NCBI GenBank assembly: GCA_023078555.1
Contig: JALAAN010000010.1
Coordinates: 434,001-498,000, forward strand
DNA: 64,000 nt
Direction of reading: 5' to 3'
From: Ulva prolifera
Lineage: Eukaryota; Chlorophyta; Ulvophyceae; Ulvales; Ulvaceae
The first letter of the stretch is position 1; each line of letters starts with the position of its first letter. Of the stretch, positions 9,642 through 33,100 are shown piece after piece. A model generated the notes under the pieces. The model saw only the letters and a list, made by a program, of their open reading frames with translations, had not been told where the DNA came from and searched no databases. A program made the position numbers and the translations under genes.

Positions 9642-9877
9642 CTAGAAGTTTGGAGGCAATCAAGTGATAAGTCAGGGCAAGGGTTGCTATCAATGTTGAA
9701 AAGGCAGCGCGCTCTCCCGCCCCTCATGCAGAAATCCCGCGCCTCACAAAAACAGGTTCCCAACCTCACGTTAGGGGCTGAATCTTTGCACATGATACTC
9801 TCTATGTCAAAGGAATGTGGTGTAGAAGTTTGGAGGCAATCAAGTGATAAGTCAGGGCTAGGGCTGCTATCAATGTT

Positions 9878-12800
9878 GAAAATGGCAGCGCGCTCTCCCT
9901 GCCCCTCATGCAGAAATCTCGCCCTCACAAAAACAGGTTCCCAACCTCACGTTAGGGGCTGAATCTTTGCACATGATGCTCTCTATGTCAAAGGAATGTG
10001 GTGTAGAAGTTTGGAGGCAATCAAGTGATAAGTCAGGGCTAGGGCTGCCTATCAATGTTGAAATGGCAGCGTGCTCTCCATGCCACTCATGCAGAAATCC
10101 CGCGCCTCACAAAAACAGGTTCCCAACATCACGTTAGGGGCTGAATCTTTGCACATGATGCTCTCTATGTCAAAGGAATGTGGTGTAGAAGTTTGGAGGC
10201 AATCAAGTGATAAGTCAGGGCTAGGGCTGCCATCAATGTTGAAATGGCAGCGTGCTCCCATGCCACTCATGCAGAAATCCCGCGCCTCACAAAAACATGT
10301 TCCCAACCTCACGTTAGGGGCTGAATCTTTGCACATGATGCTCTCTATGTCAAAGGAATGTGGTCTAGAAGTTTGGAGGCAATCAAGTGATAAGTCAGGG
10401 CTAGGGCTGCTATCAATGTTGAAATGGCAGCGTGCTCCCATGCCCCTCATGCAGAAATCCCGCGCCTCACAAAAACAGGTTCCCAACCTCACGTTAGGGG
10501 CTGAATCTTTGCACATGATGCTCTCTATGTCAAAGGAATGTGGTCTAGAAGTTTGGAGGCAATCAAGTGATAAGTCAGGGCTAGGGCTGCTATCAATGTT
10601 GAAATGGCAGCGCGCTCTCCCGCCACTCATGCAGAAATCCCGCGCCTCACAAAAACAGGTTCCCAACCTCACGTTAGGGGCTGAATCTTTGCACATGATG
10701 CTCTCTATGTCAAAGGAATGTGGTCTAGAAGTTTGGAGGCAATCAAGTGATAAGTCAGGGCAAGGGCTGCTATCAATGTTGAAATGGCAGCGCGCTCTCC
10801 CGCCACTCATGCAGAAATCCCGCGCCTCACAAAAACAGGTTCCCAACCTCACGTTAGGGGCTGAATCTTTGCACATGATGCTCTCTATGTCAAATGAATG
10901 TGAGTCTAGAAGTTTGGAGGCAATCAAGTGATAAGTCAGGGCTAAGGGCTGCTATCAATGTTGAAATGGCAGCGCGCTCTCCCTGCCACTCATGCAGAAA
11001 TCTCGCACCTCACAAAAACAGGTTCCCAACCTCACGTTAGGGGCTGAATCTTTGCACATGATGCTCTCTATGTCAAAGGAATGTGGTGTAGAAGTTTGGA
11101 GGCAATCAAGTGATAAGTCAGGGCAAGGGCTGCTATCAATGTTGAAATGGCAGCGCGCTCTCCCGCCACTCATGCAGAAATCCCGCGCCTCACAAAAACA
11201 GGTTCCCAACCTCACGTTAGGGGCTGAATCTTTGCACATGATGCTCTCTTTGTCAAAGGAATGTGGTCTAGAAGTTTGGAGGCAATCAAGTGATAAGTCA
11301 GGGCTAGGGCTGCTATCAATGTTGAAATGGCAGCGCGCTCTCCCGCCACTCATGCAGAAATCCCGCGCCTCACAAAAACAGGTTCCCAACCTCACGTTAG
11401 GGGCTGAATCTTTGCACATGATGCTCTCTATGTCAAAGGAATGTGGTCTAGAAGTTTGGAGGCAATCAAGTGACAAGTCAGGGCAAGGGCTGCTATCAAT
11501 GTTGAAATGGCAGCGCGCTCTCCCGCCACTCATGCAGAAATCCCGCGCCTCACAAAAACAGGTTCCCAACCTCACGTTAGGGGCTGAATCTTTGCACATG
11601 ATGCTCTCTATGTCAAAGGAATGTGGTCTAGAAGTTTGGAGGCAATCAAGTGATAAGTCAGGGCAAGGGCTCCTATCAATGTTGAAATGGCAGCGCGCTC
11701 TCCCGCCACTCATGCAGAAATCTCGCCCTCACAAAAACAGGTTCCCAACCTCACGTTAGGGGCTGAATCTTTGCACATGATGCTCTCTATGTCAAAGGAA
11801 TGTGGTGTAGAAGTTTGGAGGCAATCAAGTGATAAGTCAGGGCTAGGGCTGCTATCAATGTTGAAATGGCAGCGCGCTCTCCCGCCACTCATGCAGAAAT
11901 CCCGCGCCTCACAAAAACAGGTTCCCAACCTCACGTTAGGGGCTGAATCTTTGCACATGATGCTCTCTATGTCAAAGGAATGTGGTCTAGAAGTTTGGAG
12001 GCAATCAAGTGATAAGTCAGGGCAAGGGTTGCTATCAATGTTGAAATGGCAGCGCGCTCTCCCGCCCCTCATGCAGAAATCTCGCGCCTCACAAAAACAG
12101 GTTCCCAACCTCACGTTTGGGGCTGAATCTTTGCACATGATGCTCTCTATGTCAAAGGAATGTGGTCTAGAAGTTTGGAGGCAATCAAGTGATAAGTCAG
12201 GGCTAAGGGCTGCTATCAATGTTGAAATGGCAGCGCGCTCTCCCGCCACTCATGCAGAAATCTCGCCCTCACAAAAACAGGTTCCCAACCTCACGTTAGG
12301 GGCTGAATCTTTGCACATGATGCTATCTATGTCAAATTAATGTGATGTGAGGGTTTGGAGGCAATCAAGTGATAACTCAGGGCTAGGGCTGCTTTAAATG
12401 TTGAAATGGCAGCGTGCTCCCATGCCACTCATGCAGAAATCTCGCACCTCACAAAAACAGGTTCCCAACCTCACCTTAGGGGCTGAATCTTTGCACATGA
12501 TGCTCTCTATGTCAAAGGAATGTGGTGTAGAAGTTTGGAGGCAATCAAGTGATAAGTCAGGGCTAGGGCTGCTATCAATGTTGAAATGGCAGCGCGCTCT
12601 CCCGCCACTCATGCAGAAATCCCGCGCCTCACAAAAACAGGTTCCCAACCTCACGTTAGGGGCTGAATCTTTGCACATGATGCTCTCTATGTCAAAGGAA
12701 TGTGATGTAGAAGGTTTGGAGGCAATCAAGTGATAAGTCAGGGCTAGGGCTGCTATAAATGTTGAAATGGCAGCGTGCTCCCATGCCACTCATGCAGAAA

Positions 12801-13600
12801 TCTCGCACCTCACAAAAACAGGTTCCCATCCTCACCTTAGGGGCTGAATCTTTGCACATGATGCTCTCTATGTCAAAGGAATGTGGTGTAGAAGTTTGGA
12901 GGCAATCAAGTGATAAGTCAGGGCTAGGGCTGCTATCAATGTTGAAATGGCAGCGCGCTCTCCCGCCACTCATGCAGAAATCTCGCGCCTCACAAAAACA
13001 GGTTCCCAACCTCACGTTAGGGGCTGAATCTTTGCACATGATGCTATCTATGTCAAAGGAATGTGGTGTAGAAGGTTTGGAGGCAATCAAGTGATAAGCT
13101 CAGGGCTAGGGCTGCTTATAAATGTTGAAATGGCAGCGTGCTCCCATGCCACTCATGCAGAAATCTCGCACCTCACAAAAACAGGTTCCCAACCTCACCG
13201 TTAGGGGCTGAATCTTTGCACATGATGCTCTCTATGTCAAAGGAATGTGGTGTAGAAGTTTGGAGGCAATCAAGTGATAAGTCAGGGCTAAGGGCTGCTA
13301 TCAATGTTGAAATGGCAGCGCGCTCTCCCGCCACTCATGCAGAAATCTCGCCCTCACAAAAACAGGTTCCCAACCTCACGTTAGGGGCTGAATCTTTGCA
13401 CATGATGCTCTCTATGTCAAAGGAATGTGGTGTAGAAGTTTGGAGGCAATCAAGTGATAAGTCAGGGCTAGGGCTGCTATCAATGTTGAAATGGCAGCGT
13501 GCTCTCCCTGCCACTCATGCAGAAATCCCGCGCCTCACAAAAACATGTTCCCAACCTCACGTTAGGGGCTGAATCTTTGCACATGATGCTCTCTATGTCA
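9878..13600. repeat. Indel-rich satellite zone 1 (suspected mixed consensus)
   Basis: These are ordinary monomers, but with frequent single-base insertions at positions that are polymorphic elsewhere in the array. Examples are GAAAATGG (about 9,878), CTCTCCCTGCC (9,893 and 13,502), GCTGCCTATC (10,045), CTCTCCATGCC (10,073), GGCTAAGGG (10,941, 12,201 and 13,287), GATAAGCTCAGG (about 13,093), GCTTATAAATG (about 13,113) and CACCGTTAGG (13,196). Each insertion carries both alternative bases of a known variant site. Between 10,100 and 12,150 the monomers look largely normal. Base-level reliability of this zone is doubtful. Confidence 0.8.
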
Positions 13601-14430
13601 AAGGAATGTGGTCTAGAAGTTTGGAGGCAATCAAGTGATAAGTCAGGGCTAGGGCTGCTATCAATGTTGAAATGGCAGCGTGCTCCCATGCCACTCATGC
13701 AGAAATCTCGCCCTCACAAAAACAGGTTCCCAACCTCACGTTAGGGGCTGAATCTTTGCACATGATGCTCTCTATGTCAAAGGAATGTGGTGTAGAAGTT
13801 TGGAGGCAATCAAGTGATAAGTCAGGGCTAGGGCTGCTATCAATGTTGAAATGGCAGCGCGCTCTCCCGCCACTCATGCAGAAATCCCGCGCCTCACAAA
13901 AACAGGTTCCCAACCTCACGTTAGGGGCTGAATCTTTGCACATGATGCTCTCTTTGTCAAAGGAATGTGGTCTAGAAGTTTGGAGGCAATCAAGTGATAA
14001 GTCAGGGCAAGGGTTGCTATCAATGTTGAAAAGGCAGCGCGCTCTCCCGCCCCTCATGCAGAAATCCCGCGCCTCACAAAAACAGGTTCCCAACCTCACG
14101 TTAGGGGCTGAATCTTTGCACATGATGCTCTCTATGTCAAAGGAATGTGGTCTAGAAGTTTGGAGGCAATCAAGTGATAAGTCAGGGCAAGGGCTGCTAT
14201 CAATGTTGAAATGGCAGCGCGCTCTCCCGCCACTCATGCAGAAATCCCGCGCCTCACAAAAACAGGTTCCCAACCTCACGTTAGGGGCTGAATCTTTGCA
14301 CATGATACTCTCTATGTCACAGGAATGTGGTCTAGAAGTTTGGAGGCAATCAAGTGATAAGTCAGGGCAAGGGCTCCTATCAATGTTGAAATGGCAGCGC
14401 GCTCTCCCGCCACTCATGCAGAAATCTCGC
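13555..14430. repeat. 1,079-bp-offset duplicated block, copy 1
   Basis: This block matches 14,634-15,509 at an offset of 1,079 bp (six monomers, one short). Differences seen are GCCACTC versus GCCCCTC, GTTAGG versus GTTCGG, GTGATAAG versus GTGACAAG, and CGCCTCAC versus CGCTTCAC. Identity ends where this copy has CGCGCCTC and the other has the short CGCCCTC. Confidence 0.82.
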
Positions 14431-14633
14431 GCCTCACAAAAACAGGTTCCCAACCTCACGTTAGGGGCTGAATTTTTGCACATGATGCTCTCTATGTCAA
14501 AGGAATGTGGTGTAGAAGTTTGGAGGCAATCAAGTGATAAGTCAGGGCTAGGGCTGCCATCAATGTTGAAATGGCAGCGTGCTCCCATGCCACTCATGCA
14601 GAAATCCCGCGCCTCACAAAAACATGTTCCCAA

Positions 14634-15509
14634 CATCACGTTAGGGGCTGAATCTTTGCACATGATGCTCTCTATGTCAAAGGAATGTGGTCTAGAAGTT
14701 TGGAGGCAATCAAGTGATAAGTCAGGGCTAGGGCTGCTATCAATGTTGAAATGGCAGCGTGCTCCCATGCCCCTCATGCAGAAATCTCGCCCTCACAAAA
14801 ACAGGTTCCCAACCTCACGTTCGGGGCTGAATCTTTGCACATGATGCTCTCTATGTCAAAGGAATGTGGTGTAGAAGTTTGGAGGCAATCAAGTGATAAG
14901 TCAGGGCTAGGGCTGCTATCAATGTTGAAATGGCAGCGCGCTCTCCCGCCACTCATGCAGAAATCCCGCGCCTCACAAAAACAGGTTCCCAACCTCACGT
15001 TAGGGGCTGAATCTTTGCACATGATGCTCTCTTTGTCAAAGGAATGTGGTCTAGAAGTTTGGAGGCAATCAAGTGATAAGTCAGGGCAAGGGTTGCTATC
15101 AATGTTGAAAAGGCAGCGCGCTCTCCCGCCCCTCATGCAGAAATCCCGCGCCTCACAAAAACAGGTTCCCAACCTCACGTTAGGGGCTGAATCTTTGCAC
15201 ATGATGCTCTCTATGTCAAAGGAATGTGGTCTAGAAGTTTGGAGGCAATCAAGTGACAAGTCAGGGCAAGGGCTGCTATCAATGTTGAAATGGCAGCGCG
15301 CTCTCCCGCCACTCATGCAGAAATCCCGCGCTTCACAAAAACAGGTTCCCAACCTCACGTTAGGGGCTGAATCTTTGCACATGATACTCTCTATGTCACA
15401 GGAATGTGGTCTAGAAGTTTGGAGGCAATCAAGTGATAAGTCAGGGCAAGGGCTCCTATCAATGTTGAAATGGCAGCGCGCTCTCCCGCCACTCATGCAG
15501 AAATCTCGC
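14634..15509. repeat. 1,079-bp-offset duplicated block, copy 2
   Basis: This is the second copy of 13,555-14,430, with about four base differences over 876 bp by eye. It is followed by a 179-bp monomer, a TTAATGTGATG-type monomer and then the cassette at 15,904. A further related stretch of about 0.6 kb (15,337-15,930) recurs 1,438 bp downstream at about 16,775-17,368. Confidence 0.8.
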
Positions 15510-15903
15510 CCTCACAAAAACAGGTTCCCAACCTCACGTTAAGGGCTGAATCTTTGCACATGATGCTATCTATGTCAAATTAATGTGATGTGAGGGTTTG
15601 GAGGCAATCAAGTGATAACTCAGGGCTAGGGCTGCTTTAAATGTTGAAATGGCAGCAAGCTCCCATGCCACTCATGCAGAAATCTCGCACCTCACAAAAA
15701 CAGGTTCCCAACCTCACCTTAGGGGCTGAATCTTTGCACATGATGCTCTCTATGTCAAAGGAATGTGGTGTAGAAGTTTGGAGGCAATCAAGTGATAAGT
15801 CAGGGCTAGGGCTGCTATCAATGATGAAATGGCAGCGCGCTCTCCCGCCACTCATGCAGAAATCCCGCGCCTCACAAAAACAGGTTCCCAACCTCACGTT
15901 AGG

Positions 15904-16623
15904 GGCTGAATCTTTGCACATGATGCTCTCTTTGTCAAAGGAATGTGGTCTAGAAATTTGGAGGCAATCAAGTGATAAGTCAGGGCTAGGGCTGCTATCA
16001 ATGTTGAAATGGCAGCTGGCTCCCATGCCACTCATGCGAAAATCTCGCGCCTCACAAAAACAGGTTCCCAACCTCATTTTTGAGGCTGAATCTTTGCACA
16101 TGATGCTCTCTATGTCACAGGAATGTGGTCTAGAAGTTTGGAGGCAATCAAGTGACAAGTCAGGGCAAGGGCTGCTATCAATGTTGAAATGGCAGCGCGC
16201 TCTCCCGCCACACATGCAGAAATCCCGCGCCTCACAAAAACATGTTCCCAACCTCACGTTAGGGGCTGAATCTTTGCACATGATGCTCTCTATGTCAAAG
16301 GAATGTGGTCTAGAAGTTTGGAGGCAATCAAGTGATAAGTCAGGGCTAGGGCTGCCTATCAATGTTGAAATGGCAGCGTGCTCCCATGCCACTCATGCAG
16401 AAATCCCGCGCCTCACAAAAACATGTTCACAACATCACGTTAGGGGCTGAATCTTTGCACATGATGCTCTCTATGTCAAAGGAATGTGGTCTAGAAGTTT
16501 GGAGGCAATCAAGTGATAAGTCAGGGCTAGGGCTGCTATCAATGTTGAAATGGCAGCGTGCTCCCATGCCCCTCATGCAGAAATCTCGCCCTCACAAAAA
16601 CAGGTTCCCAACCTCACGTTAGG
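15904..16623. repeat. Recurring four-monomer cassette, copy at 15.9 kb (+1 bp)
   Basis: This cassette copy is 720 rather than 719 bp because of one inserted base in GCTGCCTATC near 16,353, which again contains both variants of the site (CTATC and CCATC). It shares ATGCGAAAATC and CAGGTTCCCAACC before CATTTTTGAGG with the copy at 19,496. Those two copies are therefore closest relatives. Confidence 0.86.
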
Positions 16624-17368
16624 GGCTGAATCTTTGCACATGATGCTCTCTATGTCAAAGGAATGTGGTCTAGAAGTTTGGAGGCAATCAAGTGATAAGT
16701 CAGGGCTAGGGCTGCTATCAATGTTGAAATGGCAGCGTGCTCCCATGCCCCTCATGCAGAAATCTCGCCCTCACAAAAACAGGTTCCCAACCTCACGTTA
16801 GGGGCTGAATCTTTGCACATGATACTCTCTATGTCACAGGAATGTGGTCTAGAAGTTTGGAGGCAATCAAGTGATAAGTCAGGGCAAGGGCTCCTATCAA
16901 TGTTGAAATGGCAGCGCGCTCTCCCGCCACTCATGCAGAAATCTCGCCCTCACAAAAACAGGTTCCCAACCTCACGTTAAGGGCTGAATCTTTGCACATG
17001 ATGCTATCTATGTCAAATTAATGTGATGTGAGGGTTTGGAGGCAATCAAGTGATAACTCAGGGCTAGGGCTGCTTTAAATGTTGAAATGGCAGCAAGCTC
17101 CCATGCCACTCATGCAGAAATCTCGCACCTCACAAAAACAGGTTCCCAACCTCACCTTAGGGGCTGAATCTTTGCACATGATGCTCTCTATGTCAAAGGA
17201 ATGTGGTGTAGAAGTTTGGAGGCAATCAAGTGATAAGTCAGGGCTAGGGCTGCTATCAATGATGAAATGGCAGCGCGCTCTCCCGCCACTCATGCAGAAA
17301 TCCCGCGCCTCACAAAAACAGGTTCCCAACCTCACGTTAGGGGCTGAATCTTTGCACATGATGCTCTC

Positions 17369-19495
17369 TATGTCAAAGGAATGTGGTCTAGAAGTTTGGA
17401 GGCAATCAAGTGATAAGTCAGGGCTAGGGCTGCTATCAATGTTGAAATGGCAGCGTGCTCCCATGCCACTCATGCAGAAATCTCGCGCCTCACAAAAACA
17501 GGTTCCCAACCTCACCTTAGGGCTGAATCTTTGCACATGATGCTCTCTATGTCAAAGGAATGTGGTGTAGAAGTTTGGAGGCAATCAAGTGATAAGTCAG
17601 GGCAAGGGCTGCTATCAATGTTGAAATGGCAGCGCGCTCTCCCGCCACTCATGCAGAAATCCCGCGCCTCACAAAAACAGGTTCCCAACCTCACGTTAGG
17701 GGCTGAATCTTTGCACATGATGCTCTCTATGTCAAAGGAATGTGGTCTAGAAGTTTGGAGGCAATCAAGTGATAAGTCAGGGCTAGGGCTGCCATCAATG
17801 TTGAAATGGCAGCGTGCTCCCATGCCACTCATGCAGAAATCCCGCGCCTCACAAAAACATGTTCCCAACATCACGTTAGGGGCTGAATCTTTGCACATGA
17901 TGCTCTCTATGTCAAAGGAATGTGGTCTAGAAGTTTGGAGGCAATCAAGTGATAAGTCAGGGCTAGGGCTGCTATCAATGTTGAAATGGCAGCGTGCTCC
18001 CATGCCCCTCATGCAGAAATCTCGCCCTCACAAAAACAGGTTCCCAACCTCACGTTCGGGGCTGAATCTTTGCACATGATGCTCTCTATGTCAAAGGAAT
18101 GTGGTGTAGAAGTTTGGAGGCAATCAAGTGATAAGTCAGGGCTAGGGCTGCTATCAATGTTGAAATGGCAGCGTGCTCCCATGCCCCTCATGCAGAAATC
18201 CCGCGCCTCACAAAAACATGTTCCCAACCTCACGTTAGGGGCTGAATCTTTGCACATGATGCTCTCTATGTCAAAGGAATGTGGTGTAGAAGTTTGGAGG
18301 CCATCAAGTGATAAGTCAGGGCAAGGGTTGCTATCAATGTTGAAAAGGCAGCGCGCTCTCCCGCCCCTCATGCAGAAATCCCGCGCCTCACAAAAACAGG
18401 TTCCCAACCTCACGTTAGGGGCTGAATCTTTGCACATGATACTCTCTATGTCACAGGAATGTGGTCTAGAAGTTTGGAGGCAATCAAGTGATAAGTCAGG
18501 GCAAGGGCTCCTATCAATGTTGAAATGGCAGCGCGCTCTCCCGCCACTCATGCAGAAATCTCGCCCTCACAAAAACAGGTTCCCAACCTCACGTTAGGGG
18601 CTGAATCTTTGCACATGATGCTCTCTATGTCAAAGGAATGTGGTCTAGAAGTTTGGAGGCAATCAAGTGACAAGTCAGGGCAAGGGTTGCTATCAATGTT
18701 GAAATGGCAGCGCGCTCTCCCGCCCCTCATGCAGAAATCTCGCCCTCACAAAAACAGGTTCCCAACCTCACGTTCGGGGCTGAATCTTTGCACATGATGC
18801 TCTCTATGTCAAAGGAATGTGGTGTAGAAGTTTGGAGGCAATCAAGTGATAAGTCAGGGCTAGGGCTGCTATCAATGTTGAAATGGCAGCACGCTCTCCC
18901 GCCACTCATGCAGAAATCTCGCCCTCGCAAAAACAGGTTCCCAACCTCACGTTAGGGGCTGAATCTTTGCACATGATGCTATCTATGTCAAATTAATGTG
19001 ATGTGAGGGTTTGGAGGCAATCAAGTGATAACTCAGGGCTAGGGCTGCTTTAAATGTTGAAATGGCAGCGTGCTCCCATGCCACTCATGCAGAAATCTCG
19101 CACCTCACAAAAACAGGTTCCCAACCTCACCTTAGGGGCTGAATCTTTGCACATGATGCTCTCTATGTCAAAGGAATGTGGTGTAGAAGTTTGGAGGCAA
19201 TCAAGTGATAAGTCAGGGCTAGGGTTGCTATCAATGATGAAATGGCAGCGCGCTCTCCCGCCACTCATGCAGAAATCCCGCGCCTCACAAAAACAGGTTC
19301 CCAACCTCACGTTAGGGGCTGAATCTTTGCACATGATACTCTTTATGTCACAGGAATGTGGTCTAGAAGTTTGGAGGCAATCAAGTGATAAGTCAGGGCA
19401 AGGGCTCCTATCAATGTTGAAATGGCAGCGCGCTCTCCCGCCACTCATGCAGAAATCTCGCCCTCACAAAAACAGGTTCCCAACCTCACGTTAGG
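17369..19495. repeat. Mixed standard monomers
   Basis: About twelve monomers without a long duplicate that I could recognise. They include short 179-bp forms near 18,030, 18,560, 18,740, 18,920 and 19,460, a TTAATGTGATG-type monomer near 18,980, and a monomer with GGAGGCCATC near 18,296. The last is a marker that becomes common at 31-61 kb. Near 17,519 a GTTAGGGCTG junction lacks one base of the usual run of four Gs. Confidence 0.8.
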
Positions 19496-20214
19496 GGCTG
19501 AATCTTTGCACATGATGCTCTCTTTGTCAAAGGAATGTGGTCTAGAAATTTGGAGGCAATCAAGTGATAAGTCAGGGCTAGGGCTGCTATCAATGTTGAA
19601 ATGGCAGCTGGCTCCCATGCCACTCATGCGAAAATCTCGCGCCTCACAAAAACAGGTTCCCAACCTCATTTTTGAGGCTGAATCTTTGCACATGATGCTC
19701 TCTATGTCACAGGAATGTGGTCTAGAAGTTTGGAGGCAATCAAGTGACAAGTCAGGGCAAGGGCTGCTATCAATGTTGAAATGGCAGCGCGCTCTCCCGC
19801 CACACATGCAGAAATCCCGCGCCTCACAAAAACATGTTCCCAACCTCACGTTAGGGGCTGAATCTTTGCACATGATGCTCTCTATGTCAAAGGAATGTGG
19901 TCTAGAAGTTTGGAGGCAATCAAGTGATAAGTCAGGGCTAGGGCTGCCATCAATGTTGAAATGGCAGCGTGCTCCCATGCCACTCATGCAGAAATCCCGC
20001 GCCTCACAAAAACATGTTCACAACATCACGTTAGGGGCTGAATCTTTGCACATGATGCTCTCTATGTCAAAGGAATGTGGTCTAGAAGTTTGGAGGCAAT
20101 CAAGTGATAAGTCAGGGCTAGGGCTGCTATCAATGTTGAAATGGCAGCGTGCTCCCATGCCCCTCATGCAGAAATCTCGCCCTCACAAAAACAGGTTCCC
20201 AACCTCACGTTCGG
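19496..20214. repeat. Recurring four-monomer cassette, copy at 19.5 kb
   Basis: This full 719-bp cassette has CATTTTTGAGG near 19,667, CCGCCACACATG near 19,798 and CATGTTCACAACATC near 20,014. It ends in a 179-bp monomer and the CGTTCGG junction. It shares ATGCGAAAATC with the 15.9 kb copy but lacks that copy's inserted base. Confidence 0.87.
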
Positions 20215-20289
20215 GGCTGAATCTTTGCACATGATGCTCTCTATGTCAAAGGAATGTGGTGTAGAAGTTTGGAGGCAATCAAGTGATAA

Positions 20290-20710
20290 GTCAGGGCTAG
20301 GGTCTGCTATCAATGTGAAATGGCAGCGCGCTCTCCCGCCACTCATGCAGAAATCCCGCGCCTCACAAAACAGGTTCCCAACCTCACGTTAGGGGCTGAA
20401 TCTTTGCACATGATCCTCTCTATGTTCAAAGGAATGTGGTCTAGAAGTTGGAGGCAATCAAGTGATAAGTCAGGGCAAGGGTTGCCTATCAATGTTGAAA
20501 GGCAGCGCGCTCTCCCGCCCCTCATGCAGACATCCCGCGCCTCACAAAAACAGGTTCCCAACCTCACGTTAGGGGCTGAATCTTTGCACATGATGCCTCT
20601 CTATGTCAAAGGAATGTGTGTAGAATTTGGAGGCAATCAAGTGTGATAAGTCAGGGTGCTAGGGCCTGCTATCAATGTTGAAAATGGCAGCTGCGCTCTC
20701 CCCTGCCACT
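20290..20710. repeat. Worst-preserved patch of the array
   Basis: Just over two monomers carry more than a dozen irregularities in about 420 bp. These include GGGTCTGCTATC, CAATGTGAAATGG, CACAAAACAGG, GATCCTCTC, ATGTTCAAAGG, GAAGTTGGAGG, TTGCCTATC, GTTGAAAGGC, GATGCCTCTC, GTAGAATTTGG, AGTGTGATAAG and GGTGCTAGGGCC. Some lose or double a known variant base. Others (doubled T, GT or C) do not fit that rule. It is either a decayed monomer pair or a low-quality consensus patch. It still aligns end to end with the monomer, so it is not an insertion of other DNA. Confidence 0.75.
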
Positions 20711-23700
20711 CATGCAGAAATCTCGCCCTCACAAAAACAGGTTCCCAACCTCACGTTAGGGGCTGAATCTTTGCACATGATGCTCTCTATGTCAAAGGAA
20801 TGTGGTCTAGAAGTTTGGAGGCAATCAAGTGATAAGTCAGGGCTAAGGGCTGCTATCAATGTTGAAATGGCAGCGCGCTCTCCCGCCACTCATGCAGAAA
20901 TCTCGCCCTCACAAAAACAGGTTCCCAACCTCACGTTAGGGGCTGAATCTTTGCACATGATGCTCTCTATGTCAAAGGAATGTGGTGTAGAAGTTTGGAG
21001 GCAATCAAGTGATAAGTCAGGGCTAGGGCTGCTATCAATGTTGAAATGGCAGCGCGCTCTCCCTGCCACTCATGCAGAAATCTCGCCCTCACAAAAACAG
21101 GTTCCCAACCTCACGTTAGGGGCTGAATCTTTGCACATGATGCTCTCTATGTCAAAGGAATGTGGTCTAGAAGTTTGGAGGCAATCAAGTGATAAGTCAG
21201 GGCTAGGGCTGCTATCAATGTTGAAATGGCAGCGCGCTCCCCTGCCACTCATGCAGAAATCTCGCCCTCACAAAAACAGGTTCCCAACCTCACGTTCGGG
21301 GCTGAATCTTTGCACATGATGCTCTCTATGTCAAAGGAATGTGGTGTAGAAGTTTGGAGGCAATCAAGTGATAAGTCAGGGCTAGGGCTGCTATCAATGT
21401 TGAAATGGCAGCGCGCTCTCCCGCCACTCATGCAGAAATCCCGCGCCTCACAAAAACAGGTTCCCAACCTCACGTTAGGGGCTGAATCTTTGCACATGAT
21501 GCTCTCTATGTCAAAGGAATGTGGTCTAGAAGTTTGGAGGCAATCAAGTGATAAGTCAGGGCTAGGGCTGCTATCAATGTTGAAATGGCAGCGCGCTCTC
21601 CCGCCACTCATGCAGAAATCCTCGCCCTCACAAAAACAGGTTCCCAACCTCACGTTAGGGGCTGAATCTTTGCACATGATGCTATCTATGTCAAAGTAAT
21701 GTGATGTAGAGGTTTGGAGGCAATCAAGTGATAAGTCAGGGCTAGGGCTGCTATCAATGTTGAAATGGCAGCGTGCTCCCATGCCACTCATGCAGAAATC
21801 TCGCGCCTCACAAAAACAGGTTCCCAACCTCACCTTAGGGGCTGAATCTTTGCACATGATGCTCTCTATGTCAAAGGAATGTGGTGTAGAAGTTTGGAGG
21901 CAATCAAGTGATAAGTCAGGGCTAGGGCTGCTATCAATGTTGAAATGGCAGCGCGCTCTCCCTGCCACTCATGCAGAAATCTCGCCCTCACAAAAACAGG
22001 TTCCCAACCTCACGTTAGGGGCTGAATCTTTGCACATGATGCTCTCTATGTCAAAGTAATGTGATGTAGAAGGTTTGGAGGCAATCAAGTGATAAGTCAG
22101 GGCTAGGGCTGCTTTCAATGTTGAAATGGCAGCGTGCTCCCAAGCCACTCATGCAGAAATCTCGCACCTCACAAAAACAGGTTCCCAACCTCACGTTAGG
22201 GGCTGAATCTTTGCACATGATGCTCTCTATGTCAAAGGAATGTGGTGTAGAAGTTTGGAGGCAATCAAGTGATAAGTCAGGGCTAGGGCTGCTATCAATG
22301 TTGAAATGGCAGCGCGCTCTCCCGCCACTCATGCAGAAATCTCGCCCTCACAAAAACAGGTTCCCAACCTCACGTTAGGGGCTGAATCTTTGCACATGAT
22401 GCTCTCTATGTCAAAGGAATGTGGTGTAGAAGTTTGGAGGCAATCAAGTGATAAGTCAGGGCTAGGGCTGCTATCAATGTTGAAATGGCAGCGTGCTCTC
22501 CCTGCCACTCATGCAGAAATCTCGCGCCTCACAAAAACAGGTTCCCAACCTCACGTTAGGGGCTGAATCTTTGCACATGATGCTCTCTATGTCAAAGGAA
22601 TGTGGTCTAGAAGTTTGGAGGCAATCAAGTGATAAGTCAGGGCAAGGGTTGCTATCAATGTTGAAATGGCAGCGCGCTCTCCCGCCACTCATGCAGAAAT
22701 CCCGCGCCTCACAAAAACAGGTTCCCAACCTCACGTTAGGGGCTGAATCTTTGCACATGATGCTCTCTATGTCAAAGGAATGTGGTGTAGAAGTTTGGAG
22801 GCAATCAAGTGATAAGTCAGGGCAAGGGCTGCTATCAATGTTGAAATGGCAGCGCGCTCTCCCGCCACTCATGCAGAAATCTCGCCCTCACAAAAACAGG
22901 TTCCCAACCTCACGTTAGGGGCTGAATCTTTGCACATGATGCTCTCTATGTCAAAGGAATGTGGTTTAGAAGTTTGGAGGCAATCAAGTGATAAGTCAGG
23001 GCTAGGGCTGCTATCAATGTTGAAATGGCAGCGTGCTCCCATGCCACTCATGCAGAAATCCCGCGCCTCACAAAAACAGGTTCCCAACCTCACGTTAGGG
23101 GCTGAATCTTTGCACATGATGCTCTCTATGTCAAAGGAATGTGGTCTAGAAGTTTGGAGGCAATCAAGTGATAAGTCAGGGCTAGGGCTGCTATCAATGT
23201 TGAAATGGCAGCGCGCTCTCCCGCCCCTCATGCAGAAATCCCGCGCCTCACAAAAACAGGTTCCCAACCTCACGTTAGGGGCTGAATCTTTGCACATGAT
23301 GCTCTCTATGTCAAAGGAATGTGGTGTAGAAGTTTGGAGGCAATCAAGTGATAAGTCAGGGCTAGGGCTGCTATCAATGTTGAAATGGCAGCGCGCTCTC
23401 CCGCCACTCATGCAGAAATCCCGCGCCTCACAAAAACAGGTTCCCAACCTCACGTTAGGGGCTGAATCTTTGCACATGATGCTCTCTATGTCAAAGGAAT
23501 GTGGTCTAGAAGTTTGGAGGCAATCAAGTGATAAGTCAGGGCTAGGGCTGCTATCAATGTTGAAATGGCAGCGCGCTCTCCCGCCACTCATGCAGAAATC
23601 TCGCCCTCACAAAAACAGGTTCCCAACCTCACGTTAGGGGCTGAATCTTTGCACATGATGCTCTCTATGTCAAAGGAATGTGGTCTAGAAGTTTGGAGGC

Positions 23701-26700
23701 AATCAAGTGATAAGTCAGGGCTAGGGCTGCTATCAATGTTGAAATGGCAGCGCGCTCTCCCGCCCCTCATGCAGAAATCTCGCCCTCACAAAAACAGGTT
23801 CCCAACCTCACGTTAGGGGCTGAATCTTTGCACATGATGCTCTCTATGTCAAAGGAATGTGGTCTAGAAGTTTGGAGGCAATCAAGTGATAAGTCAGGGC
23901 TAGGGCTGCTATCAATGTTGAAAATGGCAGCGCGCTCTCCCGCCCCTCATGCAGAAATCCCGCGCCTCACAAAAACAGGTTCCCAACCTCACGTTAGGGG
24001 CTGAATCTTTGCACATGATACTCTCTATGTCACAGGAATGTGGTCTAGAAGTTTGGAGGCAATCAAGTGATAAGTCAGGGCAAGGGCTGCCTATCAATGT
24101 TGAAATGGCAGCGCGCTCTCCCGCCACTCATGCAGAAATCTCGCCCTCACAAAAACAGGTTCCCAACCTCACGTTAGGGGCTGAATCTTTGCACATGATG
24201 CTCTCTATGTCAAAGGAATGTGGTCTAGAAGTTTGGAGGCAATCAAGTGACAAGTCAGGGCAAGGGTTGCTATCAATGTTGAAATGGCAGCGCGCTCTCC
24301 CGCCCCTCATGCAGAAATCTCGCCCTCACAAAAACAGGTTCCCAACCTCACGTTAGGGGCTGAATCTTTGCACATGATGCTCTCTATGTCAAAGGAATGT
24401 GGTCTAGAAGTTTGGAGGCAATCAAGTGATAAGTCAGGGCTAGGGCTGCTATCAATGTTGAAATGGCAGCGCGCTCTCCATGCCACTCATGCAGAAATCT
24501 CGCGCCTCACAAAAACATGTTCCCAACCTCACGTTAGGGGCTGAATCTTTGCACATGATGCTCTCTATGTCAAAGGAATGTGGTCTAGAAGTTTGGAGGC
24601 AATCAAGTGATAAGTCAGGGCTAGGGCTGCTATCAATGTTGAAATGGCAGCGTGCTCCCATGCCACTCATGCAGAAATCTCGCCCTCACAAAAACAGGTT
24701 CCCAACCTCACGTTCGGGGCTGAATCTTTGCACATGATGCTCTCTATGTCAAAGGAATGTGGTGTAGAAGTTTGGAGGCAATCAAGTGATAAGTCAGGGC
24801 TAGGGCTGCTATCAATGTTGAAATGGCAGCGTGCTCTCCATGCCCCTCATGCAGAAATCCCGCGCCTCACAAAAACAGGTTCCCAACCTCACGTTAGGGG
24901 CTGAATCTTTGCACATGATGCTCTCTATGTCAAAGGAATGTGGTGTAGAAGTTTGGAGGCCATCAAGTGATAAGTCAGGGCAAGGGCTGCTATCAATGTT
25001 GAAATGGCAGCGCGCTCTCCCGCCACTCATGCAGAAATCCCGCGCCTCACAAAAACAGGTTCCCAACCTCACGTTAGGGGCTGAATCTTTGCACATGATA
25101 CTCTCTATGTCACAGGAATGTGGTCTAGAAGTTTGGAGGCAATCAAGTGATAAGTCAGGGCTAGGGCTGCTATCAATGTTGAAATGGCAGCGCGCTCTCC
25201 CGCCCCTCATGCAGAAATCCCGCGCCTCACAAAAACAGGTTCCCAACCTCACGTTAGGGGCTGAATCTTTGCACATGATGCTCTCTATGTCACAGGAATG
25301 TGGTCTAGAAGTTTGGAGGCAATCAAGTGATAAGTCAGGGCAAGGGCTCCTATCAATGTTGAAATGGCAGCGCGCTCTCCCGCCACTCATGCAGAAATCT
25401 CGCCCTCACAAAAACAGGTTCCCAACCTCACGTTAGGGGCTGAATCTTTGCACATGATGCTCTCTATGTCAAAGGAATGTGGTCTAGAAGTTTGGAGGCA
25501 ATCAAGTGATAAGTCAGGGCAAGGGCTGCTATCAATGTTGAAATGGCAGCGCGCTCTCCCGCCCCTCATGCAGAAATCTCGCCCTCACAAAAACAGGTTC
25601 CCAACCTCACGTTCGGGGCTGAATCTTTGCACATGATGCTCTCTATGTCAAAGGAATGTGGTGTAGAAGTTTGGAGGCAATCAAGTGATAAGTCAGGGCA
25701 AGGGTTGCTATCAATGTTGAAATGGCAGCGCGCTCTCCCGCCCCTCATGCAGAAATCCCGCGCCTCACAAAAACAGGTTCCCAACCTCACGTTTGGGGCT
25801 GAATCTTTGCACATGATACTCTCTATGTCAAAGGAATGTCATGTAGAAGTTTGGAGGCAATCAAGTGATAAGTCAGGGCTAGGGCTGCTATCAATGTTGA
25901 AATGGCAGCACGCTCTCCCGCCACTCATGCAGAAATCTCGCCCTCGCAAAAACAGGTTCCCAACCTCACGTTAGGGGCTGAATCTTTGCACATGATGCTA
26001 TCTATGTCAAATTAATGTGATGTGAGGTTTGGAGGCAATCAAGTGATAACTCAGGGCTAGGGCTGCTTTAAATGTTGAAATGGCAGCGTGCTCCCATGCC
26101 ACTCATGCAGAATTCTCGCACCTCACAAAAACAGGTTCCCAACCTCACCTTAGGGGCTGAATCTTTGCACATGATGCTCTCTATGTCAAAGGAATGTGGT
26201 GTAGAAGTTTGGAGGCAATCAAGTGATAAGTCAGGGCTAGGGCTGCTATCAATGTTGAAATGGCAGCACGCTCTCCCGCCACTCATGCAGAAATCTCGCC
26301 CTCAGCAAAAACAGGTTCCCAACCTCACGTTAGGGGCTGAATCTTTGCACATGATGCTATCTATGTCAAATTAATGTGATGTAGAGGTTTGGAGGCAATC
26401 AAGTGATAACGTCAGGGCTAGGGCTGCTATCAATGTTGAAATGGCAGCGTGCTCCCAAGCCACTCATGCAGAAATCTCGCACCTCACAAAAACAGGTTCC
26501 CATCCTCACCTTAGGGGCTGAATCTTTGCACATGATGCTCTCTATGTCAAAGGAATGTGGTGTAGAAGTTTGGAGGCAATCAAGTGATAAGTCAGGGCTA
26601 GGGCTGCTATCAATGTTGAAATGGCAGCACGCTCTCCCGCCACTCATGCAGAAATCTCGCCCTCGCAAAAACAGGTTCCCAACCTCACGTTAGGGGCTGA

Positions 26701-29700
26701 ATCTTTGCACATGATGCTATCTATGTCAAATTAATGTGAGTTAGAGGTTTGGAGGCAATCAAGTGATAACTCAGGGCTAGGGCTGCTATAAATGTTGAAA
26801 TGGCAGCGCGCTCTCCCTGCCACTCATGCAGAAATCTCGCACCTCACAAAAACAGGTTCCCAACCTCACCTTAGGGGCTGAATCTTTGCACATGATGCTC
26901 TCTATGTCAAAGGAATGTGGTGTAGAAGTTTGGAGGCAATCAAGTGATAAGTCAGGGCTAGGGCTGCTATCAATGTTGAAATGGCAGCGCGCTCTCCCGC
27001 CACTCATGCAGAAATCCCGCGCCTCACAAAAACAGGTTCCCAACCTCACGTTAGGGGCTGAATCTTTGCACATGATGCTCTCTATGTCAAAGGAATGTGG
27101 TCTAGAAGTTTGGAGGCAATCAAGTGATAAGTCAGGGCAAGGGCTTGCTATCAATGTTGAAATGGCAGCGCGCTCTCCCGCCCCTCATGCAGAAATCCCG
27201 CGCCTCACAAAAACAGGTTCCCAACCTCACGTTAGGGGCTGAATCTTTGCACATGATGCTCTCTATGTCAAAGGAATGTGGTCTAGAAGTTTGGAGGCAA
27301 TCAAGTGATAAGTCAGGGCAAGGGCTGCTATCAATGTTGAAATGGCAGCGCGCTCTCCCGCCACTCATGCAGAAATCCCGCGCCTTCACAAAAATAGGTT
27401 CCCAACCTCACGTTAGGGGCTGAATCTTTGCACATGATACTCTCTATGTCACAGGAATGTGGTCTAGAAGTTTGGAGGCAATCAAGTGATAAGTCAGGGC
27501 AAGGGCTGCTATCAATGTTGAAATGGCAGCGCGCTCTCCCGCCACTCATGCAGAAATCTCGCCCTCACAAAAACAGGTTCCCAACCTCACGTTAGGGGCT
27601 GAATCTTTGCACATGATGCTCTCTATGTCAAATTAATGTGATGTAGAGGTTTGGAGGCAATCAAGTGATAAGTCAGGGCTAGGGCTGCTATCAATGTTGA
27701 AATGGCAGCGTGCTCCCAATGCCACTCATGCAGAAATCTCGCACCTCACAAAAACAGGTTCCCAATCCTCACCTTAGGGGCTGAATCTTTGCACATGATG
27801 CTCTCTATGTCAAAGGAATGTGGTGTAGAAGTTTGGAGGCAATCAAGTGATAAGTCAGGGCTAGGGCTGCTATCAATGTTGAAATGGCAGCACGCTCTCC
27901 CGCCACTCATGCAGAAATCTCGCCCTCGCAAAAACAGGTTCCCAACCTCACGTTAGGGGCTGAATCTTTGCACATGATGCTATCTATGTCAAATTAATGT
28001 GATGTGAGGGTTTGGAGGCAATCAAGTGATAACTCAGGGCTAGGGCTGCTATCAATGTTGAAATGGCAGCGTGCTCCCATGCCACTCATGCAGAAATCCC
28101 GCGCCTCACAAAAACAGGTTCCCAACCTCACGTTAGGGCTGAATCTTTGCACATGATGCTCTCTTTGTCAAAGGAATGTGGTCTAGAAGTTTGGAGGCAA
28201 TCAAGTGATAAGTCAGGGCAAGGGTTGCTATCAATGTTGAAAATGGCAGCGCGCTCTCCCGCCCCTCATGCAGAAATCCCGCGCCTCACAAAAACAGGTT
28301 CCCAACCTCACGTTAGGGGCTGAATCTTTGCACATGATGCTCTCTATGTCAAAGGAATGTGGTCTAGAAGTTTGGAGGCAATCAAGTGATAAGTCAGGGC
28401 AAGGGCTGCTATCAATGTTGAAATGGCAGCGCGCTCTCCCGCCACTCATGCAGAAATCTCGCCCTCACAAAAACAGGTTCCCAACCTCACGTTAGGGGCT
28501 GAATCTTTGCACATGATGCTCTCTATGTCAAAGGAATGTGGTCTAGAAGTTTGGAGGCAATCAAGTGACTAAGTCAGGGCAAGGGCTGCTATCAATGTTG
28601 AAATGGCAGCGCTGCTCTCCAGCCCCTCATGCAGAAATCTCGCGCCTCACAAAAACAGGTTCCCAACCTCACGTTAGGGGCTGAATCTTTGCACATGATG
28701 CTCTCTATGTCAAAGGAATGTGGTGTAGAAGTTTGGAGGCAATCAAGTGATAAGTCAGGGCTAGGGCTGCTATCAATGTTGAAATGGCAGCACGCTCTCC
28801 CGCCACTCATGCAGAAATCTCGCCCTCGCAAAAACAGGTTCCCAACCTCACGTTAGGGGCTGAATCTTTGCACATGATGCTATCTATGTCAAATTAATGT
28901 GATGTGAGGGTTTGGAGGCAATCAAGTGATAACTCAGGGCTAGGGCTGCTTTAAATGTTGAAATGGCAGCGTGCTCCCATGCCACTCATGCAGAAATCTC
29001 GCACCTCACAAAAACAGGTTCCCAACCTCACCTTAGGGGCTGAATCTTTGCACATGATGCTCTCTATGTCAAAGGAATGTGGTGTAGAAGTTTGGAGGCA
29101 ATCAAGTGATAAGTCAGGGCTAGGGCTGCTATCAATGTTGAAATGGCAGCGCGCTCTCCCGCCACTCATGCAGAAATCCCGCGCCTCACAAAACAGGTTC
29201 CCAACCTCACGTTAGGGGCTGAATCTTTGCACATGATGCTCTCTTGTCAAAGGAATGTGGTCTAGAAGTTTGGAGGCAATCAAGTGATAAGTCAGGGCAA
29301 GGGTTGCTATCAATGTTGAAAGGCAGCGCGCTCTCCCGCCCCTCATGCAGAAATCCCGCGCCTCACAAAAACAGGTTCCCAACCTCACGTTAGGGGCTGA
29401 ATCTTTGCACATGATACTCTCTATGTCAAAGGAATGTGGTGTAGAAGTTTGGAGGCAATCAAGTGATAAGTCAGGGCTAGGGCTGCTATCAATGTTGAAA
29501 TGGCAGCGCGCTCTCCCTGCCACTCATGCAGAAATCTCGCCCTCACAAAAACAGGTTCCCAACCTCACGTTAGGGGCTGAATCTTTGCACATGATACTCT
29601 CTATGTCACAGGAATGTGGTCTAGAAGTTTGGAGGCAATCAAGTGATAAGTCAGGGCAAGGGCTGCCTATCAATGTTGAAATGGCAGCGCGCTCTCCCGC

Positions 29701-30110
29701 CACTCATGCAGAAATCTCCGCCCTCACAAAAACAGGTTCCCAACCTCACGTTAGGGCTGAATCTTTGCACATGATGCTATCTATGTCAAAGTAATGTGAT
29801 GTGAGGGTTTGGAGGCAATCAAGTGATAACTCAGGGCTAGGGCTGCTATAAATGTTGAAATGGCAGCGAGCTCCCATGCCACTCATGCAGAAATCTCGCA
29901 CCTCACAAAAACAGGTTCCCAACCTCACGCTTAGGGGCTGAATCTTTGCACATGATGCTCTCTATGTCAAAGGAATGTGGTGTAGAAGTTTGGAGGCAAT
30001 CAAGTGATAAGTCAGGGCTAGGGCTGCTATCAATGTTGAAATGGCAGCGCGCTCTCCCGCCACTCATGCAGAAATCCGCGCCTCACAAAAACAGGTTCCC
30101 AACCTCACGT
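20711..30110. repeat. Indel-rich satellite zone 2 (suspected mixed consensus)
   Basis: About 52 monomers, mostly close to consensus, with scattered one-base indels at diagnostic positions. Insertions with both variants: AATCCTCGCC (21,618), GAAAATGG (23,919), GCTGCCTATC (24,088 and 29,664), CTCAGCAAAA (26,301), GATAACGTC (26,406), GGGCTTGCT (27,142), CGCCTTCAC (27,382), CCCAATGCC (27,716), CCCAATCCTC (27,762), GTGACTAAG (28,566), AATCTCCGCC (29,714) and CACGCTTAGG (29,927). Losses of the variant base: TTAGGGCTG (28,134 and 29,751), CTCTTGTC (29,241), TTGAAAGG (29,316) and AATCCGCGCC (30,072). Around 22.5-23.9 kb the monomers are cleaner. I found no long duplicate of this zone in the window. 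Confidence 0.8.
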
Positions 30111-30833
30111 TAGGGGCTGAATCTTTGCACATGATGCTCTCTATGTCAAAGGAATGTGGTCTAGAAGTTTGGAGGCAATCAAGTGATAAGTCAGGGCTAG
30201 GGCTGCTATCAATGTTGAAATGGCAGCTGGCTCCCATGCCACTCATGCAAAAATCTCGCGCCTCACAAAAACAGGTTCCCAACCTCATTTTTAGGGCTGA
30301 ATCTTTGCACATGATGCTCTCTATGTCACAGGAATGTGGTCTAGAAGTTTGGAGGCAATCAAGTGACAAGTCAGGGCAAGGGCTCCTATCAATGTTGAAA
30401 TGGCAGCGCGCTCTCCCGCCACTCATGCAGAAATCTCGCCCTCACAAAAACAGGTTCCCAACCTCACGTTAAGGGCTGAATCTTTGCACATGATGCTATC
30501 TATGTCAAATTAATGTGATGTGAGGGTTTGGAGGCAATCAAGTGATAACTCAGGGCTAGGGCTGCTTTAAATGTTGAAATGGCAGCAAGCTCCCATGCCA
30601 CTCATGCAGAAATCTCGCACCTCACAAAAACAGGTTCCCAACCTCACCTTAGGGGCTGAATCTTTGCACATGATGCTCTCTATGTCAAAGGAATGTGGTG
30701 TAGAAGTTTGGAGGCAATCAAGTGATAAGTCAGGGCTAGGGCTGCTATCAATGATGAAATGGCAGCGCGCTCTCCCGCCACTCATGCAGAAATCCCGCGC
30801 CTCACAAAAACAGGTTCCCAACCTCACGTTAGG

Positions 30834-31552
30834 GGCTGAATCTTTGCACATGATGCTCTCTTTGTCAAAGGAATGTGGTCTAGAAATTTGGAGGCAATCA
30901 AGTGATAAGTCAGGGCTAGGGCTGCTATCAATGTTGAAATGGCAGCTGGCTCCCATGCCACTCATGCAAAAATCTCGCGCCTCACAAAAACATGTTCCCA
31001 ACCTCATTTTTGAGGCTGAATCTTTGCACATGATGCTCTCTATGTCACAGGAATGTGGTCTAGAAGTTTGGAGGCAATCAAGTGACAAGTCAGGGCAAGG
31101 GCTGCTATCAATGTTGAAATGGCAGCGCGCTCTCCCGCCACACATGCAGAAATCCCGCGCCTCACAAAAACATGTTCCCAACCTCACGTTAGGGGCTGAA
31201 TCTTTGCACATGATGCTCTCTATGTCAAAGGAACGTGGTCTAGAAGTTTGGAGGCAATCAAGTGATAAGTCAGGGCTAGGGCGGCCATCAATGTTGAAAT
31301 GGCAGCGTGCTCCCATGCCACTCATGCAGAAATCCCGCGCCTCACAAAAACATGTTCACAACATCACGTTAGGGGCTGAATCTTTGCACATGATGCTCTC
31401 TATGTCAAAGGAATGTGGTCTAGAAGTTTGGAGGCAATCAAGTGATAAGTCAGGGCTAGGGCTGCTATCAATGTTGAAATGGCAGCGTGCTCCCATGCCC
31501 CTCATGCAGAAATCTCGCCCTCACAAAAACAGGTTCCCAACCTCACGTTCGG
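30834..31552. repeat. Recurring four-monomer cassette, copy at 30.8 kb
   Basis: This full 719-bp cassette lies inside the 6.7-kb block. It is marked by GGAACGTGGTC near 31,231 (others GGAATGTGGTC) and GGGCGGCCATC near 31,280. Both changes are shared only with the copy at 38,736, as expected if they were duplicated together. Confidence 0.88.
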
Positions 31553-32296
31553 GGCTGAATCTTTGCACATGATGCTCTCTATGTCAAAGGAATGTGGTGT
31601 AGAAGTTTGGAGGCAATCAAGTGATAAGTCAGGGCTAGGGCTGCTATCAATGTTGAAATGGCAGCGTGCTCCCATGCCCCTCATGCAGAAATCCCGCGCC
31701 TCACAAAAACATGTTCCCAACCTCACGTTAGGGGCTGAATCTTTGCACATGATGCTCTCTATGTCAAAGGAATGTGGTGTAGAAGTTTGGAGGCCATCAA
31801 GTGATAAGTCAGGGCAAGGGTTGCTATCAATTTTGAAAAGGCAGCGCGCTCTCCCGCCCCTCATGCAGAAATCCCGCGCCTCACAAAAACAGGTTCCCAA
31901 CCTCACGTTAGGGGCTGAATCTTTGCACATGATACTCTCTATGTCACAGGAATGTGGTCTAGAAGTTTGGAGGCAATCAAGTGATAAGTCAGGGCAAGGG
32001 CTCCTATCAATGTTGAAATGGCAGCGCGCTCTCCCGCCACTCATGCAGAAATCTCGCCCTCACAAAACAGGTTCCCAACCTCACGTTAGGGGCTGAATCT
32101 TTGCACATGATGCTCTCTATGTCAAAGGAATGTGGTCTAGAAGTTTGGAGGCAATCAAGTGACAAGTCAGGGCAAGGGTTGCTATCAATGTTGAAATGGC
32201 AGCACGCTCTCCCGCCACTCATGCAGAAATCTCGCCCTCGCAAAAACAGGTTCCCAACCTCACGTTAGGGGCTGAATCTTTGCACATGATGCTATC

Positions 32297-33100
32297 TATG
32301 TCAAATTAATGTGATGTGAGGGTTTGGAGGCAATCAAGTGATAACTCAGGGCTAGGGCTGCTTTAAATGTTGAAATGGCAGCGTGCTCCCATGCCACTCA
32401 TGCAGAAATCTCGCACCTCACAAAAACAGGTTCCCATCCTCACCTTAGGGGCTGAATCTTTGCACATGATGCTCTCTATGTCAAAGGAATGTGGTGTAGA
32501 AGTTTGGAGGCAATCAAGTGATAAGTCAGGGCTAGGGCTGCTATCAATGTTGAAATGGCAGCACGCTCTCCCGCCACTCATGCAGAAATCTCGCCCTCGC
32601 AAAAACAGGTTCCCAACCTCACGTTAGGGGCTGAATCTTTGCACATGATGCTATCTATGTCAAATTAATGTGATGTGAGGGTTTGGAGGCAATCAAGTGA
32701 TAACTCAGGGCTAGGGCTGCTTTAAATGTTGAAATGGCAGCGTGCTCCCAAGCCACTCATGCAGAAATCTCGCACCTCACAAAAACAGGTTCCCATCCTC
32801 ACCTTAGGGGCTGAATCTTTGCACATGATGCTCTCTATGTCAAAGGAATGTGGTGTAGAAGTTTGGAGGCAATCAAGTGATAAGTCAGGGCTAGGGCTGC
32901 TATCAATGTTGAAATGGCAGCACGCTCTCCCGCCACTCATGCAGAAATCTCGCCCTCGCAAAAACAGGTTCCCAACCTCACGTTAGGGGCTGAATCTTTG
33001 CACATGATGCTATCTATGTCAAATTAATGTGATGTGAGGGTTTGGAGGCAATCAAGTGATAACTCAGGGCTAGGGCTGCTTTAAATGTTGAAATGGCAGC
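32297..33100. repeat. 359-bp dimer repeats (180 + 179)
   Basis: A TTAATGTGATG-type monomer alternates with a 179-bp monomer carrying GCAGCACGCTC and CGCCCTCGC, giving an exact 359-bp period (GCTTTAAATG at about 32,362, 32,721 and 33,080). The units differ by CCCATGCC versus CCCAAGCC. The same dimers recur at about 40,200-41,000, and in pairs near 35,779/36,138, 43,682/44,041 and 48,889/49,248. Confidence 0.86.

Follow-up and report, generated by a model that had tools for sequence, protein, structure and literature searches.

A 180-bp array and its irregular patches

The window considered here is a stretch of 64,000 nucleotides from Ulva prolifera (contig JALAAN010000010.1, hereafter C10; C10:434001-498000), made up throughout of a single unbroken tandem array of monomers of 180 base pairs (bp). 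Two zones within it, A and B, are crowded with small insertions and deletions (indels), and the patterns in the assembled sequence suggest that these are very probably a mosaic consensus built from reads of mixed copies of the array and not a product of biology. C10 measures 1.96 megabases (Mb) in an 88.9-Mb genome of 44 contigs, and satellite array DNA extends on it from about 22 to 880 kilobases (kb) among the matches listed. In its monomer length, its head-to-tail arrangement over hundreds of kb and its local block duplications, the array may be likened by form to the centromeric satellites of the 180-bp class, a centromeric role being putative.

The window together with 200 kb around it (C10:304001-568000, 264 kb) was cut into 1,332 monomers of 150–210 bp, with three intervals outside this range (one an N run, two of them inserts) dropped before all monomer counts. 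Most monomers are 180 or 179 bp long, and 54 are off-length. These are unevenly spread, most of them falling in patches at about 333–337, 342–345, 360–370, 386, 413–414, 443.8–447.6 (zone A), 454.2–464 (zone B) and 565–566 kb of C10, with long stretches between the patches that have none. Monomers were termed clean where the nearest off-length monomer starts more than 1.5 kb away (n = 998) and patch-neighbourhood otherwise (n = 334). As the patches were selected by their off-length monomers, a high indel rate there arises by construction; the kind of indel does not. An irregular patch also holds a run of 374 Ns (C10:344117-344490), which may be an assembly gap; the 484 bases between its anchors do not fit whole monomers.

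Indel counts in the zones were taken against the nearest clean monomer (Table 1), with the worst case being a 187-bp monomer with 12 indels at window position 20573 in zone B. The 36 monomers between the zones have two insertions and one deletion, while the flanks, for which only monomers not repeated elsewhere in the clean array were considered, have one insertion at 1–9.7 kb (54 monomers) and two deletions at 30.3–64 kb (187 monomers).

Indels at sites that separate monomer subfamilies

Each of the ten allele pairs listed in an earlier note on this DNA occurs in the window in both versions, and every kind of derived form named there, ten in all, was found as well. The derived forms amount to 19 window sites, 18 of them within 9.7–13.7 or 20.2–30.2 kb (Table 1). 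A stray 181-bp monomer with the CCTATC double-allele form lies between the two zones at window 16263-16443. Over the 264 kb, this form occurs nine times near off-length monomers and once elsewhere, and the CAGGGCTAAGGGCT double-allele form ten times in irregular patches and never in clean parts. Three double-allele motifs, the first being a longer form of the CAGGGCTAAGGGCT motif for CTAGG/CAAGG, are matched exactly 15, 18 and 13 times across the genome, always on C10 and on the same strand; inside the 264 kb, these matches lie near off-length monomers except for one at 417,980.

These forms were placed in a wider frame by a single-site test, in which alleles were defined from clean monomers only and each indel was tested alone. 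The 184 of the 334 patch-neighbourhood monomers that are absent from the clean set were each aligned to the nearest clean monomer. Across the 264 kb, 60 of 121 insertions hold both alleles (16.9 expected) and 34 of 56 deletions leave neither (17.0 expected), with the expectation taken over all possible insertions placed uniformly. This assumption was softened by stratification, such that base-doubling insertions and in-run deletions were compared only with their own kind (base duplication, run length), and the excess then has a z-score (z) of 11.6 for insertions and 4.8 for deletions. In the window counts, which cover the zones and the stretch between them, both alleles are held by 23 of 54 insertions (7.4 expected, z 6.2; stratified 7.1, z 6.4), and neither is left by 9 of 15 deletions (4.6 expected, z 2.5; stratified 5.9, z 2.1). 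With context length and allele count varied in five settings, z in the window ranges from 6.1 to 7.1 for insertions and from 1.6 to 3.5 for deletions. The insertion excess at allele sites is firm; the deletion excess in the window alone is weak.

The observation in the earlier note that insertions hold both alternatives at subfamily sites is borne out, whereas its counterpart, that deletions drop the variable base, stands over the 264 kb and is weak for the window taken alone. The strict single-site test fits 32 of 69 indels in the window, a little under half, and the merge test set out below, which takes in variant sites that are neighbours, explains most of the indel-bearing monomers of the two zones. 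Indels are sharply clustered in these zones; as corrections to the note, zone A has no deletions, and similar patches lie outside the window.

Table 1. Zones, reference block and example sites, in window coordinates
Feature	Window position	C10 position	Strand	Remarks
Zone A, 22 monomers, probable mosaic consensus	9775..13744	443775-447744	+	6 off-length; 15 insertions, 0 deletions
Zone B, ~57 monomers, probable mosaic consensus	20214..30293	454214-464293	+	15 off-length; 37 insertions, 14 deletions
Zone B end, 7 monomers	29037..30293		+	in-register clean homologue: C10:317990-319248 (lag -804 monomers)
Clean block, ~12 kb, ~66 monomers	30294..42147	464294-476147	+	repeated at C10:319249-331103
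GGGCTGCCTATCAA, form CCTATC, both alleles of CTATC/CCATC	10042..10055		+	also 24084, 29660, stray 16349
CAGGGCTAAGGGCT, form GGCTAAGG, both alleles of CTAGG/CAAGG (GGCTAGG/GGCAAGG)	10937..10950		+	also 12198, 13283, 20838
GTGATAAGCTCAGG, form GATAAGC, both alleles of GATAAG/GATAAC	13091..13104		+	reverse order GATAACG at 26403
CCGCGCCTTCAC, form CGCCTTC, both alleles of CGCCTC/CGCTTC	27378..27389		+	
GTTCCCAATCCTC, form CCCAATCC, both alleles of CCCAACC/CCCATCC	27758..27770		+	
CGTTAGGGCT, form GTTAGGG, neither allele of GTTA[G/A]GGG	28131..28140		+	also 29749
AAGTGACTAAGTC, form GTGACTAAG, both alleles of GATAAG/GACAAG	28563..28575		+	
CTCTCTTGTC, form CTCTTGTC, neither allele of CTCT[A/T]TGTC	29239..29248		+	clean homologue at lag -804 has minor T
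TGAAAGGCAG, form GAAAGG, neither allele of GAAA[T/A]GG	29317..29326		+	also 20496; clean homologue has minor A
GAAATCCGCG, form AATCCGCG, neither allele of AATC[C/T]CGCG	30071..30080		+	

Merges, copies and majority alleles

Because the single-site test misses sites at which neighbouring bases co-vary (e.g., CTCTCCCGCC and CTCCCATGCC giving CTCTCCCTGCC), a merge test was added, which asks if a monomer can be written without remainder from two clean monomers drawn from the 116 occurring at least twice, with each difference settled by keeping either allele, both of them or none. Exact two-parent merges account for 86 of the 103 indel-bearing patch monomers vs 122 of 515 in a null that scatters equal numbers of indels at random, and for monomers with two or more indels the figures are 28 of 39 vs 7 of 195. 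Zones A and B together have 36 indel-bearing monomers, of which 33 can be written exactly in this way, vs 44 of 180 when the indels are placed at random.

A parallel may be drawn from farther along the array: at 640.4–641.3 and 881.3–882.8 kb, places picked by motif matches, there are 11 indel-bearing monomers, eight of them explained by merges (null 12 of 55), and at 600–605 kb, a place without a motif match, the 27 monomers include none. The motif by which the place was picked occurs in five of the 11, and three of the other six are explained by merges; this look supports patchiness more than it serves as an independent test. Minor alleles average 2.8 per monomer in the 11, vs 5.6 at 600–605 kb.

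The indel-bearing monomers also stand apart in how seldom they are copied. Verbatim repetition (at least two occurrences) is seen for 892 of 998 clean monomers, and a second verbatim copy for only 4 of the 103 indel-bearing patch monomers, which pair only among themselves. Had the indels been real and of mixed age, copying would be expected to have spread them too.

The patches further differ in the alleles they carry at 39 variable sites, where the mean number of minor alleles is 5.27 in clean monomers and 3.46 in the 215 monomers of patch cores. All 44 of the clean 20-monomer blocks lie between 4.45 and 6.05; the means for zones A and B are 2.50 and 3.07, and six of nine patches fall below the clean range. 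Minor alleles are fewer in core patches at 37 of the 39 sites and more frequent at sites 47 and 142. When a piece of zone A was used as a genome query, with only the best candidates scored, its 12 best matches after itself comprised ten in the irregular patches read and two in unread array, as blends of a single pool should.

A more direct comparison is offered where position fixes the homologue. The clean 12-kb block that begins at the end of zone B has a second copy 804 monomers (145 kb) away, the two differing by one change in each of two monomers and by none in the rest. An irregular patch adjoins one side of each copy: zone B ends at the start of the second, and another patch begins at about the end of the first. 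The repetition may reflect a recent duplication, or one of the two copies may be an assembler's false duplicate; from the geometry of blocks and patches, we infer that reads from one copy reached into the flanks of the other.

Against the clean homologue at this lag, the end of zone B shows 14 of 14 substitutions running from the minor to the major allele, and three of four insertions set the array-major base beside the homologue's minor one (0.12 expected). In clean control pairs, the same insertion pattern occurs in 1 of 68 cases (reversed, 0 of 74), and substitutions run from minor to major in 1412 of 3050 (reversed, 1285 of 3050); these 1,579 pairs are not independent, and the homologue comparison leaves out identical pairs and pairs more than 8 edits apart. 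The patch at 331.6–337 kb, compared over 22 of its 30 pairs (six of the others are more than 8 edits apart and two are identical), has 54 of 64 substitutions in the direction of the majority allele; the smaller edges show 2 of 3 at 385 kb and 4 of 5 at 370 kb in that direction.

Mixed copies, their rivals and further observations

The assembled sequence itself shows an excess of indels at specific sites, monomers that are merges of two parents, a drift to majority alleles, very few copies of the indel-bearing monomers and a patchy distribution. These features could be brought together if the assembler or a polisher had voted over reads from several similar but non-identical sources, which would most probably be further copies from this array. 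Where such reads agreed, the base would come out right; where one allele won, the array-majority allele would replace the true one; and where the vote was nearly tied, a mismatch written by the aligner as one insertion plus one deletion would leave both bases kept or both dropped. The presence of other copies' reads in the pile-up, a predominance of paralogous over allelic mixing, and the type of software involved are inferred from these features.

The vote was simulated over noisy reads of mixed clean monomers, with 60 monomers per setting; the settings are only a sketch. With an aligner restricted to indels and a depth of 8, both alleles are held by 105 of 203, 46 of 71 and 31 of 51 insertions for two, four and eight copies, and at a depth of 4 by 185 of 384 and 115 of 244 for two and four copies. 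An aligner that prefers mismatches gives 13 of 50, 15 of 45, 14 of 53, 34 of 160 and 24 of 140 with mixed copies. The observed share of 60 of 121 resembles the indel-only simulation more than the mismatch-preferring one. Deletions that leave neither allele make up 48 of 104, 67 of 132, 77 of 185, 17 of 65 and 43 of 115 under mixing with the indel-only aligner, and 6 of 13 without mixing, so that this share does not separate mixed from single sources.

Consensus tools of the PBdagcon type write a mismatch as an insertion plus a deletion. The likeness of the patches to such alignment-graph consensus lies in the share of double-allele insertions given by the indel-only simulation, and their likeness to the mixed-copy or collapsed-repeat errors of long-read assemblies lies in the loss of low-frequency variants and the collapse of near-identical sequence. 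Passages of the respective papers state that the final consensus in HiCanu is a modified PBdagcon (PMC7545148), that consensus-based correction masks low-frequency variants in mixed samples and favours the template (VeChat, PMC9636371), and that less diverged haplotypes are collapsed, with repeats being resolved at a divergence of at least 3% (Canu, PMC5411767). A "both or neither" signature read off an assembly without its reads was not met in the literature passages of a non-exhaustive search, and no claim is made that it is unpublished.

Several observations weigh against a mixed-copy consensus or limit its reach. No clean pair fits 17 of the 103 indel-bearing monomers, and the source copies were not uniquely found in the 264 kb. 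Ten of the 56 deletions are plain changes in A5 runs, and the 14 indels found in clean singletons tend in this direction too (both alleles in 2 of 6, neither in 5 of 8), being too few for a control. For three of the nine patches, the number of minor alleles per monomer stays inside the clean range (365–370 kb, 4.53; 412–415 kb, 4.86; 385 kb, 5.43 with seven monomers). Among the positional comparisons, the strict homologue form fits few indels in the patch at 331.6–337 kb (3 of 12 deletions, 4 of 18 insertions; six of the 14 insertions that do not fit bring back the commoner 180-bp form) and neither of two insertions at 369.5–370.5 kb, and only 2 of 13 substitutions at 341.7–342.3 kb go to the majority. 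Deletions at the homologue's minor base (5 of 6 in zone B) were given up as separate evidence, being equally frequent among the clean controls (60 of 74; reversed, 42 of 68). In the simulation, deletions that leave neither allele also arise from a single source (6 of 13 and 7 of 21), and the yield of indels per monomer exceeds that of the real patches, with nearly every mixed monomer having one.

Some further leads were set aside. Two sources per patch, sought as a pair of fixed monomer offsets, gave best pairs that explain 4–25 monomers per patch with no clear winner; some patch edges do show one homologue. Broken linkage in the block of sites 25–52, counted only in monomers with an unshifted block end, was not retained as evidence: other mixed forms (AGGGAGA, CTTAGAG) make up 11 of 988 clean monomers, while four mixed haplotypes (ATTAAGG, AGTAGAG, CTTAAGG, AGTAAGG) occur in 9 of 308 patch-neighbourhood vs 1 of 988 clean monomers. 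Shortened A-runs are too few to be the main cause, with A4 in 12 of the 334 monomers of patch neighbourhoods and in 8 of the 998 clean ones.

A variant contained within the mosaic consensus is the merging of only two haplotypes in place of several paralogous copies. It would yield the same both-or-neither indels, as the two-source simulation does, and two-parent merges indeed explain most indel-bearing monomers. However, with differences between two haplotypes resolved at random, the frequency of minor alleles should stay about constant, and it is lower at the 37 sites noted above and by about a third overall; moreover, the matches listed and the exact motif matches are all on C10 except for an 81% relic on contig C7, although a haplotype may be missing from the assembly. 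This loss of minor alleles favours a mixing of several paralogous copies over one of only two haplotypes, and a merger confined to two haplotypes is unlikely, though it keeps some appreciable weight. Far less probable is a plain low-quality consensus from a few noisy reads of the right locus. The ten A5-run deletions and the 187-bp monomer with 12 indels do resemble raw read noise and one patch has its 374-base N run, but such a consensus would not shift substitutions toward the array majority, and a single source yields no double-allele insertions in the simulation (0 of 2 with the indel-only and 0 of 6 with the mismatch-preferring aligner, both small numbers).

The remaining explanations would make the patches real. 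Older, decaying array segments would agree with patches that are present in the assembly with many more indels than the rest. However, decay would raise private substitutions and move monomers off the consensus, whereas the window zones lie closer to it; the insertions also sit on subfamily sites, and the indel-bearing monomers are hardly ever copied. A mosaic consensus is to be preferred over decay because a vote over mixed copies predicts the pull to the majority allele and mutational decay does not, and decay is left with a very slight probability. A similarly slight one attaches to recent exchange with other copies, by which badly repaired heteroduplex mismatches would leave both bases or neither and conversion would run toward the common monomer. 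In both its parts, the reading of the earlier note has thus held up: a consensus caller merging mixed copies is supported by the site excess, the merges, the scarcity of copies and the majority drift, and elevated indel decay is much the less likely.

If the patches are indeed a mosaic consensus, as is very probable, then satellite decay, indel rates, subfamily ages and array history taken from this assembly would be misleading in them, their cores comprising 215 of the 1,332 monomers of the 264 kb. The signature could also serve as a simple read-free test for mixed-copy consensus, in which insertions are compared with the alleles of clean neighbours and a drift to majority alleles is checked alongside.

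A few other elements may be recorded. Two non-satellite inserts of about 11.5–12 kb each break the array at C10:500.2-512.1 and 524.0-535.5 kb. Nine of their reading frames have no Pfam match above the curated cut-off; one of the nine shows a weak similarity to C2H2/BED zinc fingers (E-value 0.015–0.06), which may hint that the inserts are mobile elements. The C7 relic is an isolated stretch on the minus strand (C7:1985163-1985333), 81% identical to the satellite and possibly a diverged relative. Within the window, a run of 180-bp monomers at 7350-8874 is open on both strands (506 amino acids on plus, 492 on minus); since 180 is a multiple of 3, these frames are likely a by-product of the repeat length.

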